Assembly: GCF_010681825.2 (NCBI RefSeq)
Contig: NZ_CP066776.1
Span: 1,426,001-1,490,000, forward strand
Source of the DNA: Sulfuriroseicoccus oceanibius
Lineage (GTDB): Bacteria > Verrucomicrobiota > Verrucomicrobiia > Verrucomicrobiales > SLCJ01
Direction: 5' to 3'
Length of the DNA stretch: 64,000 nucleotides
Shown: one piece after another, positions 5,225 through 22,778 of the stretch
Position numbering within the stretch: position 1 is the stretch's first letter
How the letters are laid out: every line of letters begins with the position of its first letter
Translations under genes and position numbers: made by a program
The notes under the pieces: generated by a model
What the model saw: only the letters and a program-made list of their open reading frames with translations
What the model was told of the DNA's origin: nothing
Databases searched by the model: none

Positions 5225-6370
5225 ATGATCGAGCAGATGACGCGTAAAGATTCCTCTAGTCCGGCCCGCAGCGGGCGAAGTGTATTGATTGCCTGTGGCG
5301 GCACCGGTGGGCATTTGTTTCCCGGGATTGCCGTGGCGCAGGAGTTGGTGGCGCGCGGGCACCGGCCGCTGTTGTTGATTTCTGGCAAGAAGATCGATGA
5401 GACGGCGTCGGCCGCGTACCCGGATCTGGAGTTTCTGTCCTTGCCAGCGGTGGGGATGCCGAAGCTGTTGTCGCTGAAATTTCCGGTATTCGTGTGGAAG
5501 TTTCTCAAGTCGCTTGGGATGTGTCGGCGGTTGATCCGTAAGCGTGGTGTTTCCGCGGTTTTGGGAATGGGAGGCTTCACCTCGTTGCCGCCGGTGATGG
5601 CGGGCAACCAGCTCAAGCTGCCGACCTACGTGCACGATTCGAATGCGTTGCCGGGCAAGGCGAACCGAATTGCCGCTCGGTTTTGTAATGAGGTGTTTAT
5701 TGGAATGGAGGCTGCTGCGGCTCACTTTCCGAACCGTCCGGCCAAGATGGTGGGGACACCTGTGCGCGATGCGGTGCGGGGCGCGGCTGGTGCTTCCGAC
5801 GAGCAACGGGCCGCGGCTCGTGAGTCGTTCGGATTGCTGCCTGACCGGGTGACTCTGTTGGTGACCGGTGGGAGCCAGGGGGCGCGGGCGCTGAACCGTG
5901 GGCTCGGTGAGGCCTTGAAAGACGTGCCGGATGAGGCGCTGCAGGTGCTTTGGATCTCTGGTGCCTCCGCCGAGGCCGAAGTGCGTGAAATGGCGGGCCA
6001 ACTCGCGCAGCGGGTGGCTGTCTTGCCATTCTGTGACCGGATGGAGGATGCTCTGATCGCGGCGGACTTTGTGTTGGCTCGTGCCGGGGCGTCTTCGTTG
6101 ACTGAGTTTTCCGCAGTCGGCTTGCCGGCCATTCTCGTGCCTTACCCCTATGCGGCCGAGGACCATCAGCGGGTGAATGCCGAATACTATACCAGCCGGG
6201 GGGCGGGTGAGGTGATGGATGAGAAGGATCTGACTCCGGCGCATCTGGCGGCGACCTTGATCCGCTGGGCGGATTCGGATGCGGAGCGGGCTAAGATGGG
6301 CGCCGCGATGCGCGCGTTGGGCGTTGATTCCCCGGAGGCTGAAATTGCCGACTTGTTGGTTGGGAAGTGA
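5225..6370 (+). CDS. murG: MurG, lipid II synthase
   Basis: Glycosyltransferase that adds GlcNAc from UDP-GlcNAc to lipid I on the inner face of the membrane. The N-terminal glycine loop VLIACGGTGGHLFPGIAVAQ and the second loop VTGGSQGARALN are both clear, with the C-terminal acceptor region RAGASSLTEFSAVGLPAILVPYPYAAEDHQ. The frame opens at 5189, but ATG 5225 or ATG 5237 fits the family N-terminus better. First gene of the wall/division cluster. ftsW and murD, its usual upstream neighbours, are absent; rplM lies upstream instead. Confidence 0.95.
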   Translation: MIEQMTRKDSSSPARSGRSVLIACGGTGGHLFPGIAVAQELVARGHRPLLLISGKKIDETASAAYPDLEFLSLPAVGMPKLLSLKFPVFVWKFLKSLGMCRRLIRKRGVSAVLGMGGFTSLPPVMAGNQLKLPTYVHDSNALPGKANRIAARFCNEVFIGMEAAAAHFPNRPAKMVGTPVRDAVRGAAGASDEQRAAARESFGLLPDRVTLLVTGGSQGARALNRGLGEALKDVPDEALQVLWISGASAEAEVREMAGQLAQRVAVLPFCDRMEDALIAADFVLARAGASSLTEFSAVGLPAILVPYPYAAEDHQRVNAEYYTSRGAGEVMDEKDLTPAHLAATLIRWADSDAERAKMGAAMRALGVDSPEAEIADLLVGK

Positions 6371-6449
6371 TGCAAAAATCTGCGACTGCCCGCGGATCTG
6401 TGCGGGATGCAGCCTTGACCTGATTCGGCATCTGAAGGAAGTCTACCGC

Positions 6450-8786
6450 ATGTCTGATCCTACCTCCGCTCCACTTGAATTGATGAACTCCCTGGCCTCC
6501 GGTGACCGGAGGTTGGACGTGCATTTGATTGGTGTGGCGGGTTCGGGGATGAGCGGGATCGCGGGGATGATGCTCGAGCTCGGGCATGCGGTGAGCGGGT
6601 CCGACCGGGTGAGTTCGGCGGAAGTCGAGCGCTTGCAGGGATTGGGGTTGCGGTTCACGTCGCCGCAGACACCAGCGAGTGTGAACGGAGCGGACATCGT
6701 GATTTATTCGTCGGCGATCCGTCCGGGCAATGTGGCGTACGACGCCGCGGCTGCGGCCGGGCTGCCGATGGTGCGGCGGGCTGATGCTCTGGCTGCGGTG
6801 CTCAATGCACGACGCGGCGTGGTGGTGGCGGGAACGCATGGCAAGACGACAACCTCGTCGCTGACGGCTCATGTGCTGCGCACCGGCAAGGTGGAATCCG
6901 GGCACTATGTCGGGGCGGAGATCCCCGTGCTGGGGACCAACGCACACGTTGCAGAGAATGGCGGCTACTTCGTGGCCGAGGGCGACGAAAGTGACGGGAC
7001 GCTGGTGAAGTACCACCCGGAGCACACCATTTTGCTCAACATTGAAGAAGAACACCTCGACTTCTATTCGGGGCTCGATGAGATCAATCAGGTTTTCAAA
7101 ACCCTCTGCGACCAGACGTCCGGCACGGTTTATTTCTGCGGGGCGGATGCCAACGCGGCGGCGCTGTGCCGTGGCCGCGAGCGCACGGTGAGCTACGGCT
7201 GGGATGAGGATTGTGATCTGTACGCCACCAACGTGCACTTCAACCGACGCGAGACGGCCTTCAATGTGGTGCGCAATGGCGAAGATCTCGGTGAGTTTTT
7301 GCTCGGTGTACCCGGGCGCCACAACGTGCTCAACGCAATGGCGGCGATCGCCGTGGCGCAGGACCTGGGGGTGGACGCCGCAGCCATCCGCGATGCATTG
7401 CGCACCTTCCACGGAGCGCGGCGTAGGTTTGAGTCGCGCTACCGCAGCGAGCGCTTTTCGGTGGTCGATGACTACGGGCACCATCCGACGGAGATCGCCG
7501 CGACGATGGAGGCGGCGCGTGCCTTGAACCCACAGCGGATTCTGACCTTGTTCCAGCCGCATCGCTACAGCCGCACCCAGCGTCTGCGCGATGAGTTCGG
7601 TCGCTCGTTCTGGATGGCGGATCAATTGGTGGTCTCTGATATCTACCCAGCGAGCGAACAACCAATCCCAGGGATCACAGGGCAGACCGTTGCCGACGCC
7701 GTGGGTGAGTGTGCCCAACGCGATGATCTGACCGTGCGTGCGCAATACGTGCCGACTTTGAAGCAAGCCCGTTTGACGATTGGCAACCTGGCGCGGCCTG
7801 GTGACATGTTGATCACATTGGGAGCGGGCAACGTGCACGAGTGCGCGGTGCCTTTGGCGCGCGATTTGAAGACGTTGGAGTCGCTGGTTGCTGCCAGCGG
7901 GGAGAGTGAGATGAAGGCGCGGCTGTACGAGCCGATGAAAAAGCACACGACCATTCGGATCGGCGGGCCTGCCCAGTTCTGGGTTGAGCCGACGACTTTC
8001 GACGGTTTTGCCGGTATTGTGCGTTATTGCCGCGAGCATGAAATCCCGGTGCGTGTGGTCGGTCGTGGCTCGAACCTGCTGGTGCGCGATGGTGGCATCC
8101 CGGGCGTGGTGATTCACCCGAATGGTGGCGAGTTTTCCGAGGTGAAAACGAGCGGCACTCGGATCACGGCGGGTGTCGGAACGCGCTTCAAGAAGCTGAC
8201 TGCGGTTGCACGCGACCAGGGGATTGCCGGCTTCGAGTGGATGGAGGGGATTCCAGGAAACGTCGGCGGTGGCTTGCGAATGAACGCGGGGGCCATGGGG
8301 ACATCGACCTTTGATCAGGTGGTCTCCGTGCTGCTGATCAACCGCAAAGGCGAACTCGAATGGCGGCCTGCCTCCAAGATGGTGGCGCAGTACCGCAATG
8401 TGGCGGAATTGGTCGACGAGTACGCGTTGGCGGCCACGTTCGAAGGGCAGGAGGGAGATCGCGATGCGATCGATGAACTCATTGCCGAGTCCAAAGACAA
8501 GCGGAAGTCGAGCCAGCCGGTGGCGGCGAGTGCCGGTTGTATCTTCAAGAACCCGGAGCCGTGTCCTGCCGGAAAGCTGGTCGATGAGCTGGGTATGAAA
8601 GGCTCGTCCGTCGGGAAAATCCGCGTGTCGGATATCCACGGGAACTTTATTGTGAACGAAGGCGGCGGGACGGCACGTGAAATGCTGCAGTTGATCGAGC
8701 GCATTAAATCCGAGGCCCGTGCGTCGCGCGGCATCGAGATGGAGACAGAAGTGCAGATCATCGGAGAGGACGAAGTGAACTTTTAA
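6450..8786 (+). CDS. murC-murB: Fused MurC-MurB: UDP-MurNAc-L-Ala ligase / UDP-MurNAc dehydrogenase
   Basis: A 778-residue fusion. Residues 1 to about 470 are MurC: N-terminal GVAGSGMSGIAGMMLELGH, ATP P-loop GTHGKTTTSSL, and FQPHRYSRT near the C-terminal end. Residues about 485-778 are MurB, an FAD oxidoreductase that makes UDP-MurNAc: RIGGPAQFWVEP, GRGSNLLVRDGG, EWMEGIPGNVGGGLRMNAGAMG and SAGCIFKNP. The fusion joins the last nucleotide-sugar reduction to the first amino-acid addition. The start at 6450 is chosen over an open frame from 6279 because MSDPTSAPLEL leads into the MurC fold. It follows murG by 79 bp and precedes ddl by 23 bp. Confidence 0.95.
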   Translation: MSDPTSAPLELMNSLASGDRRLDVHLIGVAGSGMSGIAGMMLELGHAVSGSDRVSSAEVERLQGLGLRFTSPQTPASVNGADIVIYSSAIRPGNVAYDAAAAAGLPMVRRADALAAVLNARRGVVVAGTHGKTTTSSLTAHVLRTGKVESGHYVGAEIPVLGTNAHVAENGGYFVAEGDESDGTLVKYHPEHTILLNIEEEHLDFYSGLDEINQVFKTLCDQTSGTVYFCGADANAAALCRGRERTVSYGWDEDCDLYATNVHFNRRETAFNVVRNGEDLGEFLLGVPGRHNVLNAMAAIAVAQDLGVDAAAIRDALRTFHGARRRFESRYRSERFSVVDDYGHHPTEIAATMEAARALNPQRILTLFQPHRYSRTQRLRDEFGRSFWMADQLVVSDIYPASEQPIPGITGQTVADAVGECAQRDDLTVRAQYVPTLKQARLTIGNLARPGDMLITLGAGNVHECAVPLARDLKTLESLVAASGESEMKARLYEPMKKHTTIRIGGPAQFWVEPTTFDGFAGIVRYCREHEIPVRVVGRGSNLLVRDGGIPGVVIHPNGGEFSEVKTSGTRITAGVGTRFKKLTAVARDQGIAGFEWMEGIPGNVGGGLRMNAGAMGTSTFDQVVSVLLINRKGELEWRPASKMVAQYRNVAELVDEYALAATFEGQEGDRDAIDELIAESKDKRKSSQPVAASAGCIFKNPEPCPAGKLVDELGMKGSSVGKIRVSDIHGNFIVNEGGGTAREMLQLIERIKSEARASRGIEMETEVQIIGEDEVNF

Positions 8787-12257: not shown

Positions 12258-14075
12258 ATGATCGAGTTTTCAAGCAACCCACAACGCGAGATCCCAAGTG
12301 CATCGGCAACCGCCGCCAAAGTCATCGGTGTCGGAGGTGCCGGCATCAATGTGATCGACCGCCTGGCGATGGAGTCGATGGAAGGCGCCGGGTTGCTGGC
12401 GCTGCACACCGACGTGCGTGCTCTGGCCAACACTGTGACAACCGAGCGCGTGCAGTTGGGCAAGAAGTTGACCCACGGTCTGGGCGCGGGTGGCGACCCT
12501 GAGATCGGTCGTCGCGCGGCGATCGAGGCGACGGATGACATTCTGGCGGAAGTCAGTGGTCACCGCATGGTCTTCGTTTGCGCTGGCTTGGGCGGTGGTA
12601 CCGGATCGGGTGCGGCACCGGAAGTCGTGCGCATCGCACGTGAGGCCGGTGCATTTGTCGTGGCTTTCGCGACCATGCCATTCCGTTTCGAGGGCGGGCG
12701 TCGTCAGGAGCAGGCGGAGCAGGCGTTGCAAGAAATGCGCCGCGAGGCCAATGCATTGATCACCTTCGACAACGACCGCATGGGTGAGCTCATCGTCGAG
12801 AGCGAGGGGATCCAGCGCGCGTTCGAAGCGGCGGACAACTTGATCGCTGAGAGCGTGCGTGGTGTGTCCAACTTGGTCACCCGCCCGGGCTTGATCAAGA
12901 TTGGCTTGGACGACTTGCTCACCGCGCTGCGCAATTCGGATTCGCGTTGTTTGTTCGGCTCGGGGCGTGCCAGCGGCGACAAGCGTGGCAAGGAAGCTCT
13001 GCGCAAGGCACTCAACAGTCCGCTCTTGATGAAGGGTAAAATGTTCTCGTCGGCTCGCAATATCCTGGTGCACGTCACCGGTGGCGAAGACCTGCGACTG
13101 CATGAGATCGACGGCTTGATGCGCGAGTTGGCCAAGAGTGTGCCTGCCGACGCGCAGTTGCTGTTCGGTGCGGCGGTGGATCCGTCGATGAAGAAGGAGC
13201 TGTCGGTGACTTTGTTCAGTTCGTTGGCTCACGGTGAGCCGCAGGAAGAGGAAGTGCAGACCAAACCGGCGGTCGAACCAATCGCGGCGGTCGTGCGCGG
13301 TGTGGTGGAATCCCCGGCACCGGTGGCCGAGGAGTCTGTGGAGGACGAGCCCGTCGCAGAAGAAGCACCGGTTGAAGATGTCGTGGAGGAAGCTCCAGTA
13401 GCAGTCGAGTCGGAAGTGGTCGAGGCCGCTGAATTGCCGGTCGAGCAACCGGAGCCAGAGGTGGAGCCGGAGGCTGTGGGCGATTCGCTCTTTGCCCAGG
13501 ACGAAATGGAAGAGCCAGCCTCGCCTGAGGTCGGTTTGTTCGATGCCCCTGCAGTAGAGGCTGAAGAAGAACCAGAAGTCGAGGAAGCCGCTGCGGTGGA
13601 ATCCATTTTCGAACAGCCGGAAGAAGAAGTCGCCGAACCTGAGCCAGAGCCGGTGGCCGAACAATTTGAGCCGGAAGTAGAAGAAGAAATTGTCGCGACC
13701 GTGGTCGACGACTCGGTAGCTGGTTTCGATGACTTCGAGGAGACTGTCGAACCTGAAGAGCCGGTCCTCTACCAGGCCGAGCCAACTCCGGAGCCGGAAC
13801 CTGAGGAGGAGTTTTTCAACCAGTTGGAGGGCGACAACACAGTGCCGGTGAACCTGCGCTCCGAGGAGATCGACGAGTCGGGTGGGCCGTTCGAGGCTGC
13901 CGGGTTCGACGATGTGGCCGATGACGACGAGGCGCCGCTGCCGGGAACGCAGTCGCAGCTTGAGCTCGACCGACCAGCCAGCGATGGCGGGCGATTCGCC
14001 AAGTCGGAGCCAACCATCGTCGATGGCGAGGATCTGGACACACCGGCCTTCCTGCGCAAGCGCAACCGACGCTAA
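12258..14075 (+). CDS. ftsZ: Cell division protein FtsZ with long acidic linker
   Basis: Tubulin-like GTPase that forms the Z ring. The tubulin signature GLGGGTGSGAAPEV lies at about residues 110-125, with VGGAGINVIDR upstream. The polymerising core ends near residue 320. After it comes a very acidic, Pro/Glu/Val-rich linker of about 260 residues (repeats such as EEAPVEDVVEEAPVAVES), then a conserved C-terminal peptide LDTPAFLRKRNRR that should bind FtsA. Total length is 605 residues against about 380 in typical FtsZ. A terminator follows at once. Confidence 0.96.
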   Translation: MIEFSSNPQREIPSASATAAKVIGVGGAGINVIDRLAMESMEGAGLLALHTDVRALANTVTTERVQLGKKLTHGLGAGGDPEIGRRAAIEATDDILAEVSGHRMVFVCAGLGGGTGSGAAPEVVRIAREAGAFVVAFATMPFRFEGGRRQEQAEQALQEMRREANALITFDNDRMGELIVESEGIQRAFEAADNLIAESVRGVSNLVTRPGLIKIGLDDLLTALRNSDSRCLFGSGRASGDKRGKEALRKALNSPLLMKGKMFSSARNILVHVTGGEDLRLHEIDGLMRELAKSVPADAQLLFGAAVDPSMKKELSVTLFSSLAHGEPQEEEVQTKPAVEPIAAVVRGVVESPAPVAEESVEDEPVAEEAPVEDVVEEAPVAVESEVVEAAELPVEQPEPEVEPEAVGDSLFAQDEMEEPASPEVGLFDAPAVEAEEEPEVEEAAAVESIFEQPEEEVAEPEPEPVAEQFEPEVEEEIVATVVDDSVAGFDDFEETVEPEEPVLYQAEPTPEPEPEEEFFNQLEGDNTVPVNLRSEEIDESGGPFEAAGFDDVADDDEAPLPGTQSQLELDRPASDGGRFAKSEPTIVDGEDLDTPAFLRKRNRR

Positions 14076-14086
14076 ATCAATCCTAA

Positions 14087-14116
14087 CGGGCGCTCCGAGT
14101 ACGGGCGCCCGTTTTT
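14087..14116 (+). terminator. Intrinsic terminator after ftsZ
   Basis: Seven-base-pair GC stem CGGGCGC/GCGCCCG followed by five T. It separates the division cluster from the selenoprotein gene, whose ATG is 18 bp further on. Confidence 0.85.
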
Positions 14117-14134: not shown

Positions 14135-14566
14135 ATGATGCGTGCGCTCCTGCCCATTTTTGCCGTCGTTGTGTTGCTGGCTTTTGGTTGCAACGAGCGG
14201 GCGGGGGATGGCGATCCCGGATCAAATGTGGCCTCAAAGCCGGTGACGAGAGTTGTCACGGTGCTCCACGCTGACGGATGAGCCACCACTCCGGGAGCGG
14301 TCGCTCTCGTCGGGGAATGTGCGAAACAGGCCGGGCTCGAAATCTTGATCGAACAAATTGAGGTCAAGACGGACGAGGACGTTTGGAAGCATCGGTTCAT
14401 CGGGAGTCCTACCGTCCGGATCAATGGGCTGGATGTGGATCCGGCCGCCAGATCATCGAACCAATATGGGTTCACCTGACGCATGACCGACTGGACGCCG
14501 GGTGCGTCCACTACGGAGAAGATGATCTACGACGCGTTTGCCGAGGCGGGGTGGACCGACCGCTGA
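14135..14566 (+). CDS. Putative selenoprotein lipoprotein with two selenocysteines, thioredoxin-like
   Basis: Reading from ATG 14135 gives 143 residues if two in-frame UGA codons (14279-14281, residue 49; 14477-14479, residue 115) are decoded, ending at UGA 14564. Residues 1-19 are a hydrophobic signal ending LLAFGC, a loose lipobox with Cys19 as possible lipid site. The rest reads VTVLHADG-U-ATTPGAV, then FIGSPTVRINGLDVDPAA and YGFT-U-RMT. From memory this matches small thioredoxin-fold proteins with a CPxTP redox motif, FLGSPTVRVDG, and a later Cys in a GLxCR motif; both UGAs fall exactly on those Cys positions. Each UGA is followed by a stable hairpin with GGU in its loop. The alternative is a pseudogene with two stops, but that would not explain the Cys alignment or the hairpins. 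No Sec machinery gene lies in the window. Confidence 0.8.
14292..14309 (+). promoter_or_regulatory. Bacterial SECIS-like hairpin for Sec49
   Basis: Stem CGGGAGC/GCTCTCG (seven pairs, one G-U) closed by the tetraloop GGTC. The loop GG begins 17 nt after the UGA, close to the spacing I recall for the E. coli fdhF SECIS, whose loop also presents GGU to SelB. Confidence 0.75.
14492..14510 (+). promoter_or_regulatory. Bacterial SECIS-like hairpin for Sec115
   Basis: Perfect seven-base-pair stem TGGACGC/GCGTCCA with loop CGGGT, which contains GGU. The loop GG lies about 20 nt after the second UGA. Confidence 0.75.
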
Positions 14567-20291: not shown

Positions 20292-22778
20292 ATGCACGAC
20301 AAGGCGACGAACGACGCAGCGGCAACTGACGTCCGTAACGAGACGATTCAGTTTGAAGACAAATCAGTGCGCTACTTCATGTGGGCGTCGATTATTTGGG
20401 GGATCGTGGGGATGCTGGCGGGCGTGATCGCCGCCTTCCAGATGCCGTTCTGGGAGATGAACAGTCTGTTCCTTCAGAAGATCACCAGCGGCTTGAATGC
20501 ACTCCCTGGCATGGGATGGGTGCCGGTGTTCGATACGACGGGGATCGAGTACATCACCTTCGGGCGCTTGCGTCCGCTGCACACGAACGCGGCTATTTTC
20601 GCCTTTGTGGGCAACATGGTTTTCGCCGGGGTTTACTATTCCACCCAGCGACTTTGCAAGCAGCGCACGGCGTCGTCGCTGCTGACGTGGCTCCATTTCT
20701 GGGGCTGGCAGACGATTATTGTGCTGGCTGCACTGACCATTCCTGCGGGCTTCACCCGTGGTAAGGAGTACGCCGAGCTGATCTGGCCGATCAACATCAT
20801 GGTGGCCGTGGTGTGGGTGATCTTCGGATGGAACTTCTTCTGGACGCTGAAGCGACGCAACGAGCCGTCGCTCTACGTGGCGCTTTGGTTCTACATCGCG
20901 ACCATCGTCACCGTAGCGATGCTCTACATTGTGAACCACTTGTCGATCCCGACCAGCCTGACCCATAGCTACCCGATCTTCGGTGGTGTGCAGGACGCGC
21001 TGGTGCAGTGGTGGTATGGCCACAACGCGGTGGCATTCTTCCTTACGACGCCGGTGCTCGGCATCATGTACTACTTCATGCCGAAGGCGGCGGAGCGTCC
21101 GGTTTACTCGTACCGACTTTCCATCATTCACTTCTGGTCGCTGGTGTTCATCTACATCTGGGCCGGCCCGCACCACTTGCTCAACACGGGCCTTCCGAAG
21201 TGGTTGCAGATGATCGGGATGTTCTTCTCGCTGATGCTTTGGGCTCCATCCTGGGGTGGTATGCTCAATGGTTTGCTCACCCTCCGCGGGGCTTGGGACA
21301 AGCTGCGCACCGACCCGGTGATCAAGTTCTTCGTGGTGGGCATCACCTTCTACGGGATGTCGACCTTTGAAGGGCCGCTGCTTTCGATCCGCGCCGTCAA
21401 CGCGCTCGGTCACTACACCGACTGGATCGTGGGTCACGTGCACGGTGGAACGCTCGGCTGGAACGGCTTCATGGCTGCCGGTATGTTCTACTGGCTGGCG
21501 CCACGACTCTACGGCCGCGCCCTGTACTCCAAGGCCGGAGCCAACCTTCACTTCTGGATTGGTCTGGTGGGGATTCTGATCTACGTCGGCTCGATGTGGG
21601 CGGCGGGTATCACCCAGGGGCTGATGCTCAATGGCACCAAGGAAGGTGGCACCATGCTGGCCCAGCCTGACTTCGTGAAGACCGTGGGTGCGATCAAGGG
21701 ACTCTATATTGCTCGAGGCGTCGGTGGTCTGCTTTACCTCGCCGGTTACTTCATCCTGGTCTGGAACATCTTCATGACCATGAAGAAGGGCAAAACGGTG
21801 GAAGACGTGCGTGAGTACGTGGTGACCCGCACCGAAAACCAGGACGCCATGGGCTTCAAGGTGACCTTCATGAACGACCCGGTGGTCTACTTCTTCGTCG
21901 GTCTCGTGTTCTTGCTCGGTATGTTCTTTGCGCCGGTCGGGATGAACGTGGCGTGCGGATTGATCTTCCTGGTCTTTGTGTACTTCGCGGTGCAGAAGTT
22001 CAAGGCGGCTGGGTTGAAGTGGGGCGAGTGGTACCACCGCTTGCTTGAGAACTACCTGCCATTCACGATTCTGACCTTCATCGCGGTGGCGATTGGCGGG
22101 ATGGTTCAGATCATTCCGAACGTGACCATCAACCGCGCGGCCAATATCCAAGACCGATTGCAGGTGCCGTACACGCCGCTTGAGCTGGCTGGACGCGACA
22201 TCTACATCGCCGAGGGATGCTACAACTGTCACTCGCAGCAGATCCGTACGATGGTGCCTGATGTGTTGCGCTACGGTGACCACAGCCGCATCGGTGAGAG
22301 CATCTATGACTTCCCATTCCAGTGGGGCTCCAAGCGTACCGGTCCGGATTTGGCACGTGAAGGCGGCAAGCGCCCGAACACATGGCACTACGACCACATG
22401 CTCGACCCACGCGATGTGGTCGAAGATTCGATCATGCCGGCCTATCCTTGGTTGTTCGATCAGAAGACCGACTACAAGGCGCTGCCGAAGAAGGTGGAAG
22501 TCCAGCAGCAGCTCGGTGTACCAATGATCAGCGATGCGATTATCGACCGTGCCCGACTTCAGGCATTGGAAATCGCCCAGGATTTGCAGGAGAACGGCCG
22601 CAACGTGGATCCGGATACCAAGATCATCGCGCTGATCGCCTACTTGCAGAAGCTGGGTGCCTACGAAGAGGTGAAGGCGGAAGAAGAGGAACGCGATCTC
22701 GAGCAGGATCTGCCGGACAAGACGTTCTTCAACACACCGGACACCACGCGTGAAGACATCAAGGGCTACGGACTGTAA
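20292..22778 (+). CDS. ccoNO: Fused cbb3 cytochrome oxidase subunits I and II (CcoN-CcoO)
   Basis: An 828-residue fusion. Residues 1 to about 600 are CcoN, the heme b/b3-CuB catalytic subunit with about a dozen membrane helices; likely heme and copper ligands lie in LRPLHTNAAIF (His97), WWYGHNAVAFF, AGPHHLLNTG and GHVHGGTLGW. A further helix leads into CcoO, a membrane-anchored cytochrome c with heme motif EGCYNCHSQQIR (Cys643, Cys646, His647) and Met-containing VVEDSIMPAYPWL. Electrons pass from CcoP through CcoO to the binuclear centre, reducing O2 with high affinity. The full set of accessory genes follows. Confidence 0.96.
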   Translation: MHDKATNDAAATDVRNETIQFEDKSVRYFMWASIIWGIVGMLAGVIAAFQMPFWEMNSLFLQKITSGLNALPGMGWVPVFDTTGIEYITFGRLRPLHTNAAIFAFVGNMVFAGVYYSTQRLCKQRTASSLLTWLHFWGWQTIIVLAALTIPAGFTRGKEYAELIWPINIMVAVVWVIFGWNFFWTLKRRNEPSLYVALWFYIATIVTVAMLYIVNHLSIPTSLTHSYPIFGGVQDALVQWWYGHNAVAFFLTTPVLGIMYYFMPKAAERPVYSYRLSIIHFWSLVFIYIWAGPHHLLNTGLPKWLQMIGMFFSLMLWAPSWGGMLNGLLTLRGAWDKLRTDPVIKFFVVGITFYGMSTFEGPLLSIRAVNALGHYTDWIVGHVHGGTLGWNGFMAAGMFYWLAPRLYGRALYSKAGANLHFWIGLVGILIYVGSMWAAGITQGLMLNGTKEGGTMLAQPDFVKTVGAIKGLYIARGVGGLLYLAGYFILVWNIFMTMKKGKTVEDVREYVVTRTENQDAMGFKVTFMNDPVVYFFVGLVFLLGMFFAPVGMNVACGLIFLVFVYFAVQKFKAAGLKWGEWYHRLLENYLPFTILTFIAVAIGGMVQIIPNVTINRAANIQDRLQVPYTPLELAGRDIYIAEGCYNCHSQQIRTMVPDVLRYGDHSRIGESIYDFPFQWGSKRTGPDLAREGGKRPNTWHYDHMLDPRDVVEDSIMPAYPWLFDQKTDYKALPKKVEVQQQLGVPMISDAIIDRARLQALEIAQDLQENGRNVDPDTKIIALIAYLQKLGAYEEVKAEEEERDLEQDLPDKTFFNTPDTTREDIKGYGL

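Follow-up and report, generated by a model that had tools for sequence, protein, structure and literature searches.

The gene and its surroundings

The window, that is, the whole stretch of 64,000 nucleotides that was analysed, contains a reading frame of 143 codons that is broken only by two in-frame UGA codons. We predict, with a probability of about 0.9 and from sequence, that it encodes a lipid-anchored, thioredoxin-fold selenoprotein of the DF family in which both UGAs are read as selenocysteine (Sec). The features at the locus are:

14085..14113, +, terminator-like hairpin downstream of ftsZ; 11 bp with a T-rich tail, chance expectation 0.5
14135..14566, +, predicted two-Sec DF-family lipoprotein gene; 143 codons plus stop TGA, assigned by NF049942 score and UGA conservation
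14135..14194, +, predicted signal peptide and lipobox (LAFG-C; the Cys predicted to be lipidated is 14189-14191), from the sequence and the lipoboxes of the clade
14279..14281, +, UGA 1, predicted Sec at the thioredoxin active-site position; a Cys/Sec column without exception in alignment A1, Cys in homologues
14292..14309, +, SECIS-like hairpin 1; 7-bp stem CGGGAGC/GCUCUCG, loop GGUC
14399..14410, +, G-S-P-T codons, probable cis-Pro loop of the thioredoxin fold; G89, S90 and P91 invariant and T92 nearly so in A1
14477..14479, +, UGA 2, predicted Sec in G-F-T-U-R; a Cys/Sec column without exception in A1, ancestral Sec site of the clade, Cys in homologues
14492..14510, +, SECIS-like hairpin 2; 7-bp stem UGGACGC/GCGUCCA, loop CGGGU

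The reading of 14135-14566 (+) is MMRALLPIFAVVVLLAFGCNERAG...LHADG-U-ATTPGAVALV...RFIGSPTVRINGLDVDP...QYGFT-U-RMTDWTPGAS...AGWTDR, then TGA. Counted from the ATG at 14135, the in-frame TGA triplets are codons 49 (14279-14281) and 115 (14477-14479), and the frame is otherwise open; the ATG at 14138 is an equally possible start. A reading made earlier from the sequence alone had the coordinates and lengths of this frame right, and also its expectation that a standard gene caller would miss it: 14135-14566 is absent as a single gene from a mechanical list of open reading frames. Ordinary gene finders would shorten the gene because both key Cys residues are replaced by predicted Sec read from UGA. 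The motifs that the sequence-only reading gave for related proteins, CPxTP and GLxCR, were correct in that homologues have Cys at the U positions, but are here amended to U-x-x-T-P and G-F-T-U-R.

The putative leader ends in LLAFG-C, which fits a permissive PROSITE-type lipoprotein pattern (hydrophobic leader plus lipobox). Lipoboxes of homologues are more typical (LLSSC, SLISC, GLAGC), and every member of the closest clade has an equivalent, in keeping with the lipobox originally proposed. The low-confidence N-terminus of the AF2 model is compatible with a cleaved leader.

The gene begins 60 nt 3' of ftsZ (12258-14075), and since the terminator-like hairpin lies between the dcw/ftsZ cluster and the gene, the latter is probably a separate unit; a search upstream of it for a sigma-70-type promoter found no match. 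Elsewhere in the window, an 835-amino acid ORF (6279-8786, +) resembles, by eye, a MurC-MurB fusion, with ddl, ftsQ, ftsA, and ftsZ downstream, and an 828-amino acid ORF (20292-22778, +) likewise looks like CcoN (cbb3 oxidase subunit I) fused to CcoO (cytochrome c subunit), with CcoP-like and CcoG-like genes after it.

Conservation of the two UGA codons

The gene of a same-genus genome (Verrucomicrobiales LH_M34, locus L037) has both UGAs at the same columns, and its domain is free of the additional stops and frameshifts that the earlier proposal had named as refuting; this homologue has no clear start codon for a leader. Relative to it, dN is ~0.2 in the stretch between the UGAs and likewise beyond the second, and dS, which is partly saturated and is lowered at the hairpins, ranges from 0.5 to above 1, a sign of purifying selection. 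Because dN is well below dS and the protein is kept in other phyla, the frame is most simply explained as being translated through both UGAs.

A DNA pattern (F-x-G-S-P-T...G-[LF]-x-UGA-R) was scanned against 84,980 genomes, one per species, and yielded 21 loci, 16 of which are true homologues; the remaining five (L027, L032, L038, L040, and L046) were chance matches and were dropped. UGA occupies both sites in six of the 16 (L036, L037, L039, L041, L044, and L045), always at a spacing of 198 nt. A previous protein-based scan of genome contigs with the window protein gave no match. Independent profile (HMM) searches of 392 genomes from Planctomycetota, to which L045 belongs, and of 395 from the phylum of L042 (Desulfomonile) added the two-UGA members L063, L066, L068, L077, and L098. 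Both UGAs are kept in L036, L037, L041, L044, L045, and L063, and Planctomycetota lipoproteins share the pair at its spacing of 198 nt. The rarity initially ascribed to such a gene must be tempered, as two-Sec DF members also occur in Planctomycetota and in Myxococcota/Desulfobacterota-type genomes; nevertheless, few proteins have Sec at two separate sites, which obliges each of them to decode two UGA stops. It had also been anticipated that homologues would have Cys at both positions: only Cys or Sec is found there in 19/19 rows of A1, and 28 members are Cys-Cys.

The gene selA is present in 13 of the 16 pattern-scan genomes, and selB is over its cut-off in 8 of the 11 genomes checked. The genomes of the double-UGA loci L041 and L045 have no recognisable selA and no full selB, perhaps because they are fragmented metagenome assemblies.

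SECIS-like hairpins

The stem of hairpin 1 starts 10 nt after its UGA and the loop 17 nt after; for hairpin 2, the corresponding distances are 12 and 19 nt. The 7-bp hairpins claimed at 17 to 20 nt after each UGA thus exist, but that distance is to the loop and not to the stem. The bSECIS model calls for a loop of 3-9 nt, a stem of 4-16 bp, G in the first two loop positions, a spacing of 16-37 nt, and a minimum free energy <= -7.5 (PMC13188914). Both sites fit these constraints, site 1 with 7 bp, GGUC, 17 nt, and -15.6, and site 2 with 7 bp, CGGGU, 19 nt, and -14.4. Of the window's 2055 TGA triplets, only 1.3% are followed by a stem of 7 bp or more with a loop of this kind; with a stem of 6 bp, the null rate at TGA there is 2.6%. 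Compared with shuffled sequences, the folding energies are not unusual by themselves (z = -0.5 for hairpin 1 and -1.5 for hairpin 2), and comparative tests were therefore used instead.

In a codon alignment of six two-Sec lipoproteins, synonymous-codon identity is 85% over hairpin 1 and 93% over hairpin 2, against 46% elsewhere; in sliding 6-codon blocks, the maximum falls on hairpin 2, and hairpin 1 forms the second distinct peak. A model-fitting hairpin of at least 6 bp follows site 1 in 9/12 UGA members vs. 2/56 Cys members (p 2e-7), and site 2 in 33/40 UGA members vs. 0/28 Cys members (p 7e-13); because the sequences are related, the p values assume more independence than exists, yet the contrast is still plain. 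Covariation (one compensatory CG/AU pair at hairpin 1, none at hairpin 2) is too thin to decide the matter, so the argument rests on the freezing of synonymous codons and on the UGA/Cys contrast. Rfam scans of the region returned nothing relevant. Judged on this comparative evidence, with both UGAs and their hairpins conserved in independent genomes and the synonymous sites frozen, the hairpin pair is above chance.

Selenocysteine machinery and family assignment

The S. oceanibius genome (3.5 Mb, one contig) has a tRNA-Sec gene with anticodon UCA together with selA (471 bits), selB (306 bits), and selD (368 bits), all over their cut-offs, as the sequence-only reading would demand of its host. 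From their presence, we infer that SelA, SelB, SelD, and tRNA-Sec act on the mRNA of the window gene. The selD gene (1190029-1190955 of the contig) lies ~190 bp from the tRNA-Sec gene and carries one in-frame TGA, and SelD itself thus appears, from its sequence, to be a selenoprotein.

The window protein scores 90 bits (E 7.5e-26) against NCBIfam NF049942, 'DF family (seleno)protein', for which the curated cut-off is 70; at the genome level, the same model gives 75.6 bits across two internal TGAs, the sole match in the genome. A database match for the translated frame therefore exists, but it is to a family that already has a name. The published member, 'hypothetical protein DF', is a deep-Sep prediction from Desulfosediminicola flagellatus for which other Sec users yielded no homologue with UGA (PMC12013277), and a 2026 catalogue and review entered DF with one Sec and no motif (PMC13188914). 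Contrary to the statement of the founding paper, single-Sec DF genes with UGA at site 2 (L028, L030, L031, L033, L034, L035, L042, L043, L047, and others) occur in Chloroflexota, Fidelibacterota, Armatimonadota, and Desulfomonile. The exchange of Sec and Cys expected of DF holds for the window protein, as every one of the 19 rows of A1 has Cys or Sec at both columns. It deviates from the description 'one Sec per protein' in having two UGAs, each with a hairpin; that phrase describes the published member and is not part of the score-based definition of NF049942.

Evolution of the Sec sites

Designating Cys as C and Sec as U at sites 1 and 2, the members comprise 28 CC, 28 CU, and 12 UU (the window copy counted once), and no UC, with a few divergent rows having Ser, Asn, or Pro at a site; because part of the counts came from the biased pattern scan, the CU/UU ratios are not frequencies. 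Sec at site 1 alone was found in none of the HMM-based genome searches, which could detect it, whereas the pattern scan could not. A tree of 73 members was built from few columns, and many of its forks are unresolved, but ten lipoproteins (nine UU and one CU, L059) form one supported clade (100/93). This is nested in a further supported clade (99/98), the remaining members of which are all CU and without a lipobox; the position of the lipoproteins inside CU proteins therefore suggests that Sec arose at site 2 first and at site 1 later. The tree has UU at no fewer than three separate positions (the lipoprotein clade, L039/L098, and L077), and Sec was accordingly gained at site 1 three times or more. 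A lipobox is found in 10/10 members of the lipoprotein clade, and in 9/12 UU vs. 1/28 CU proteins overall.

Within the two-Sec clade, the lipoprotein DF gene L059 (1492-1791, +) combines Cys at site 1 with UGA at site 2, and is either an intermediate state or a reversion. In the Planctomycetota sample, a DF subclade (L049, L051, L053, and L056) has Cys at site 1 and Ser (Asn in L055) at site 2; these sequences suggest that the second redox residue can be lost. With CC, CU, and UU members and no UC, the DF family offers a natural series for the worth of a second Sec and the order in which Cys is replaced by Sec.

Predicted fold

Assignment to the thioredoxin fold is supported to a moderate degree. 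The profile match to the solved thioredoxin 1fo5 has an E of 1.1e-6, the core of the AF2 model has a pLDDT of 92-98, and many thioredoxins are among its top structural matches (Z 7-8), the best Foldseek E of 1e-3 being moderate. Site 1 lies just N-terminal of the first helix, like the nucleophilic Cys of thioredoxin, and site 2 follows the GSPT loop, the cis-Pro role of which is probable from the modelled fold. The classical CxxC (or UxxC/CxxU) of thioredoxin is absent; the motif is U-A-T-T-P, and the partner residue is 66 positions on.

Metal context of homologues and possible role

No metal-resistance genes were found beside the window gene, and a search of its genome for MerT gave no match, a weak result because the control was silent too. 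Among the homologues, L045 has a CsoR-type repressor and a CopZ-MerT-HMA fusion immediately upstream, and L039 has ArsC, ACR3, and an ArsP permease as neighbours; a MerR-like gene is directly upstream of L034, L042, and L047, L098 adjoins an ACR3-type transporter, and L077 adjoins a MerC-like gene. Cys homologues on plasmids lie beside MerR and alkylmercury lyase, or beside ArsR and a metal ATPase. Within the lipoprotein clade, obvious metal context is confined to L045 (plus L063, beside a zinc-transporter-like fragment), and many single-Sec homologues and several relatives, like the window gene, have no metal neighbours. At L077 (1072-1788, -), the two-UGA DF gene is without a leader and is followed by the MerC-like membrane protein gene, which itself has an in-frame TGA (CPT-U); its product is possibly a Sec-containing mercury transporter, to judge from the sequence.

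Because relatives adjoin mercury and arsenic resistance genes, we consider defence against Hg and As the most likely role, and by analogy with these neighbourhoods the chance that the two-Sec lipoprotein handles such metals is close to even. Each UGA would be decoded as Sec by the cell's own SelA, SelB, tRNA-Sec, and SelD by means of its own SECIS hairpin, and secretion and lipidation would place both selenols at the periplasm or the outer face. Sec 1 would stand in for the nucleophilic N-terminal Cys of thioredoxin, and Sec 2, past the GSPT loop, would be the resolving or a second chelating residue. The pair might then undergo diselenide cycling or bind soft metal(loid)s, and would serve in envelope defence against Hg/As-type soft toxicants through their capture or reductive handling by a high-affinity selenol pair. 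If so, there is a testable tie between the use of selenium and the handling of mercury and arsenic at the cell envelope.

With odds somewhat short of even, the protein is instead a general envelope thiol/selenol oxidoreductase, acting on peroxide or in disulfide/diselenide exchange, and the metal neighbours are incidental. The thioredoxin fold and the active-site placement of Sec are in accord with such an activity, as is the lack of metal neighbours for the window gene and many Sec homologues; it does not account for the recurrence of metal genes next to homologues in several phyla and on plasmids. The strongest form of the metal proposal, in which the envelope has, in the double-Sec DF lipoproteins, a selenol-pair system devoted to the soft metal(loid)s Hg(II), organomercury, and As(III), the stepwise-gained Sec residues replacing a Cys pair and giving very tight bis-selenolate binding or diselenide redox, is tentative and we think it rather unlikely.

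Other readings of the UGA codons

It is very improbable that a single UGA is decoded as Sec while the other terminates translation or is read by near-cognate suppression. Most Sec homologues do have one Sec, at site 2 (CU 28 vs. UU 12), and L044, L039, and L098 have an imperfect hairpin at site 1; yet a stop at UGA 1 would lose the whole domain, whereas coding selection reaches the end of the gene, and hairpin 1, with its 85% synonymous identity, is tied to UGA and not to Cys. A pseudogene or sequencing error, i.e., a former two-Cys gene with two stop mutations, would explain two in-frame stops at which a gene caller would split the frame, but is refuted by their exact conservation across phyla in independent assemblies, always as UGA and always in Cys columns, with dN well below dS downstream. 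A reassigned code in which UGA specifies Trp or Gly would give a reason for a frame open under another code, and is rejected since UGA aligns with Cys of homologues, the genome has tRNA-Sec(UCA) and SelA/B/D, and neighbours such as ftsZ are intact under table 11. Decoding of both UGAs as Sec is the reading that we retain.

Comparison with known systems

The small thioredoxins of Thioredoxin_3/redox_disulf_1 (TIGR00411), e.g., 1fo5, share the thioredoxin fold with the window protein, which scores below the cut-offs of these families, is without CxxC, and has its second redox residue 66 residues later, past GSPT. The DUF2703 proteins of ars clusters (PMC6514093) are alike in thioredoxin fold and ars context, with a weak Pfam similarity (E 0.068, below cut-off), but are CXXC proteins without Sec. 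More than one Sec per prokaryotic protein is also known from the UxxU metal-binding protein NF041115, the distant Grx-like NF041114, the ferredoxin-thioredoxin reductase NF041072, and TsoB NF045694 (PMC13188914). Those families differ from DF, and UxxU and UxxxxU are adjacent pairs, whereas the predicted Sec residues of the window protein are 66 residues apart.

With the DF family, the window protein shares an NF049942 score above the cut-off, the exchange of Cys and Sec, and a SECIS element after UGA. The two-Sec or lipoprotein form was unreported in the literature searched, the coverage of which stopped short of Haft and Tolstoy 2025 (PMC12013261). As DF was published as a one-Sec protein from one species, and here there are two Sec, two SECIS elements, a lipoprotein leader, and relatives in several phyla, the window gene adds to an already known family of predicted selenoproteins a new variant, a lipoprotein with two Sec. 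The family thereby extends beyond one reported species and one Sec, to two Sec and several phyla, and its genes exemplify a class that standard annotation shortens.
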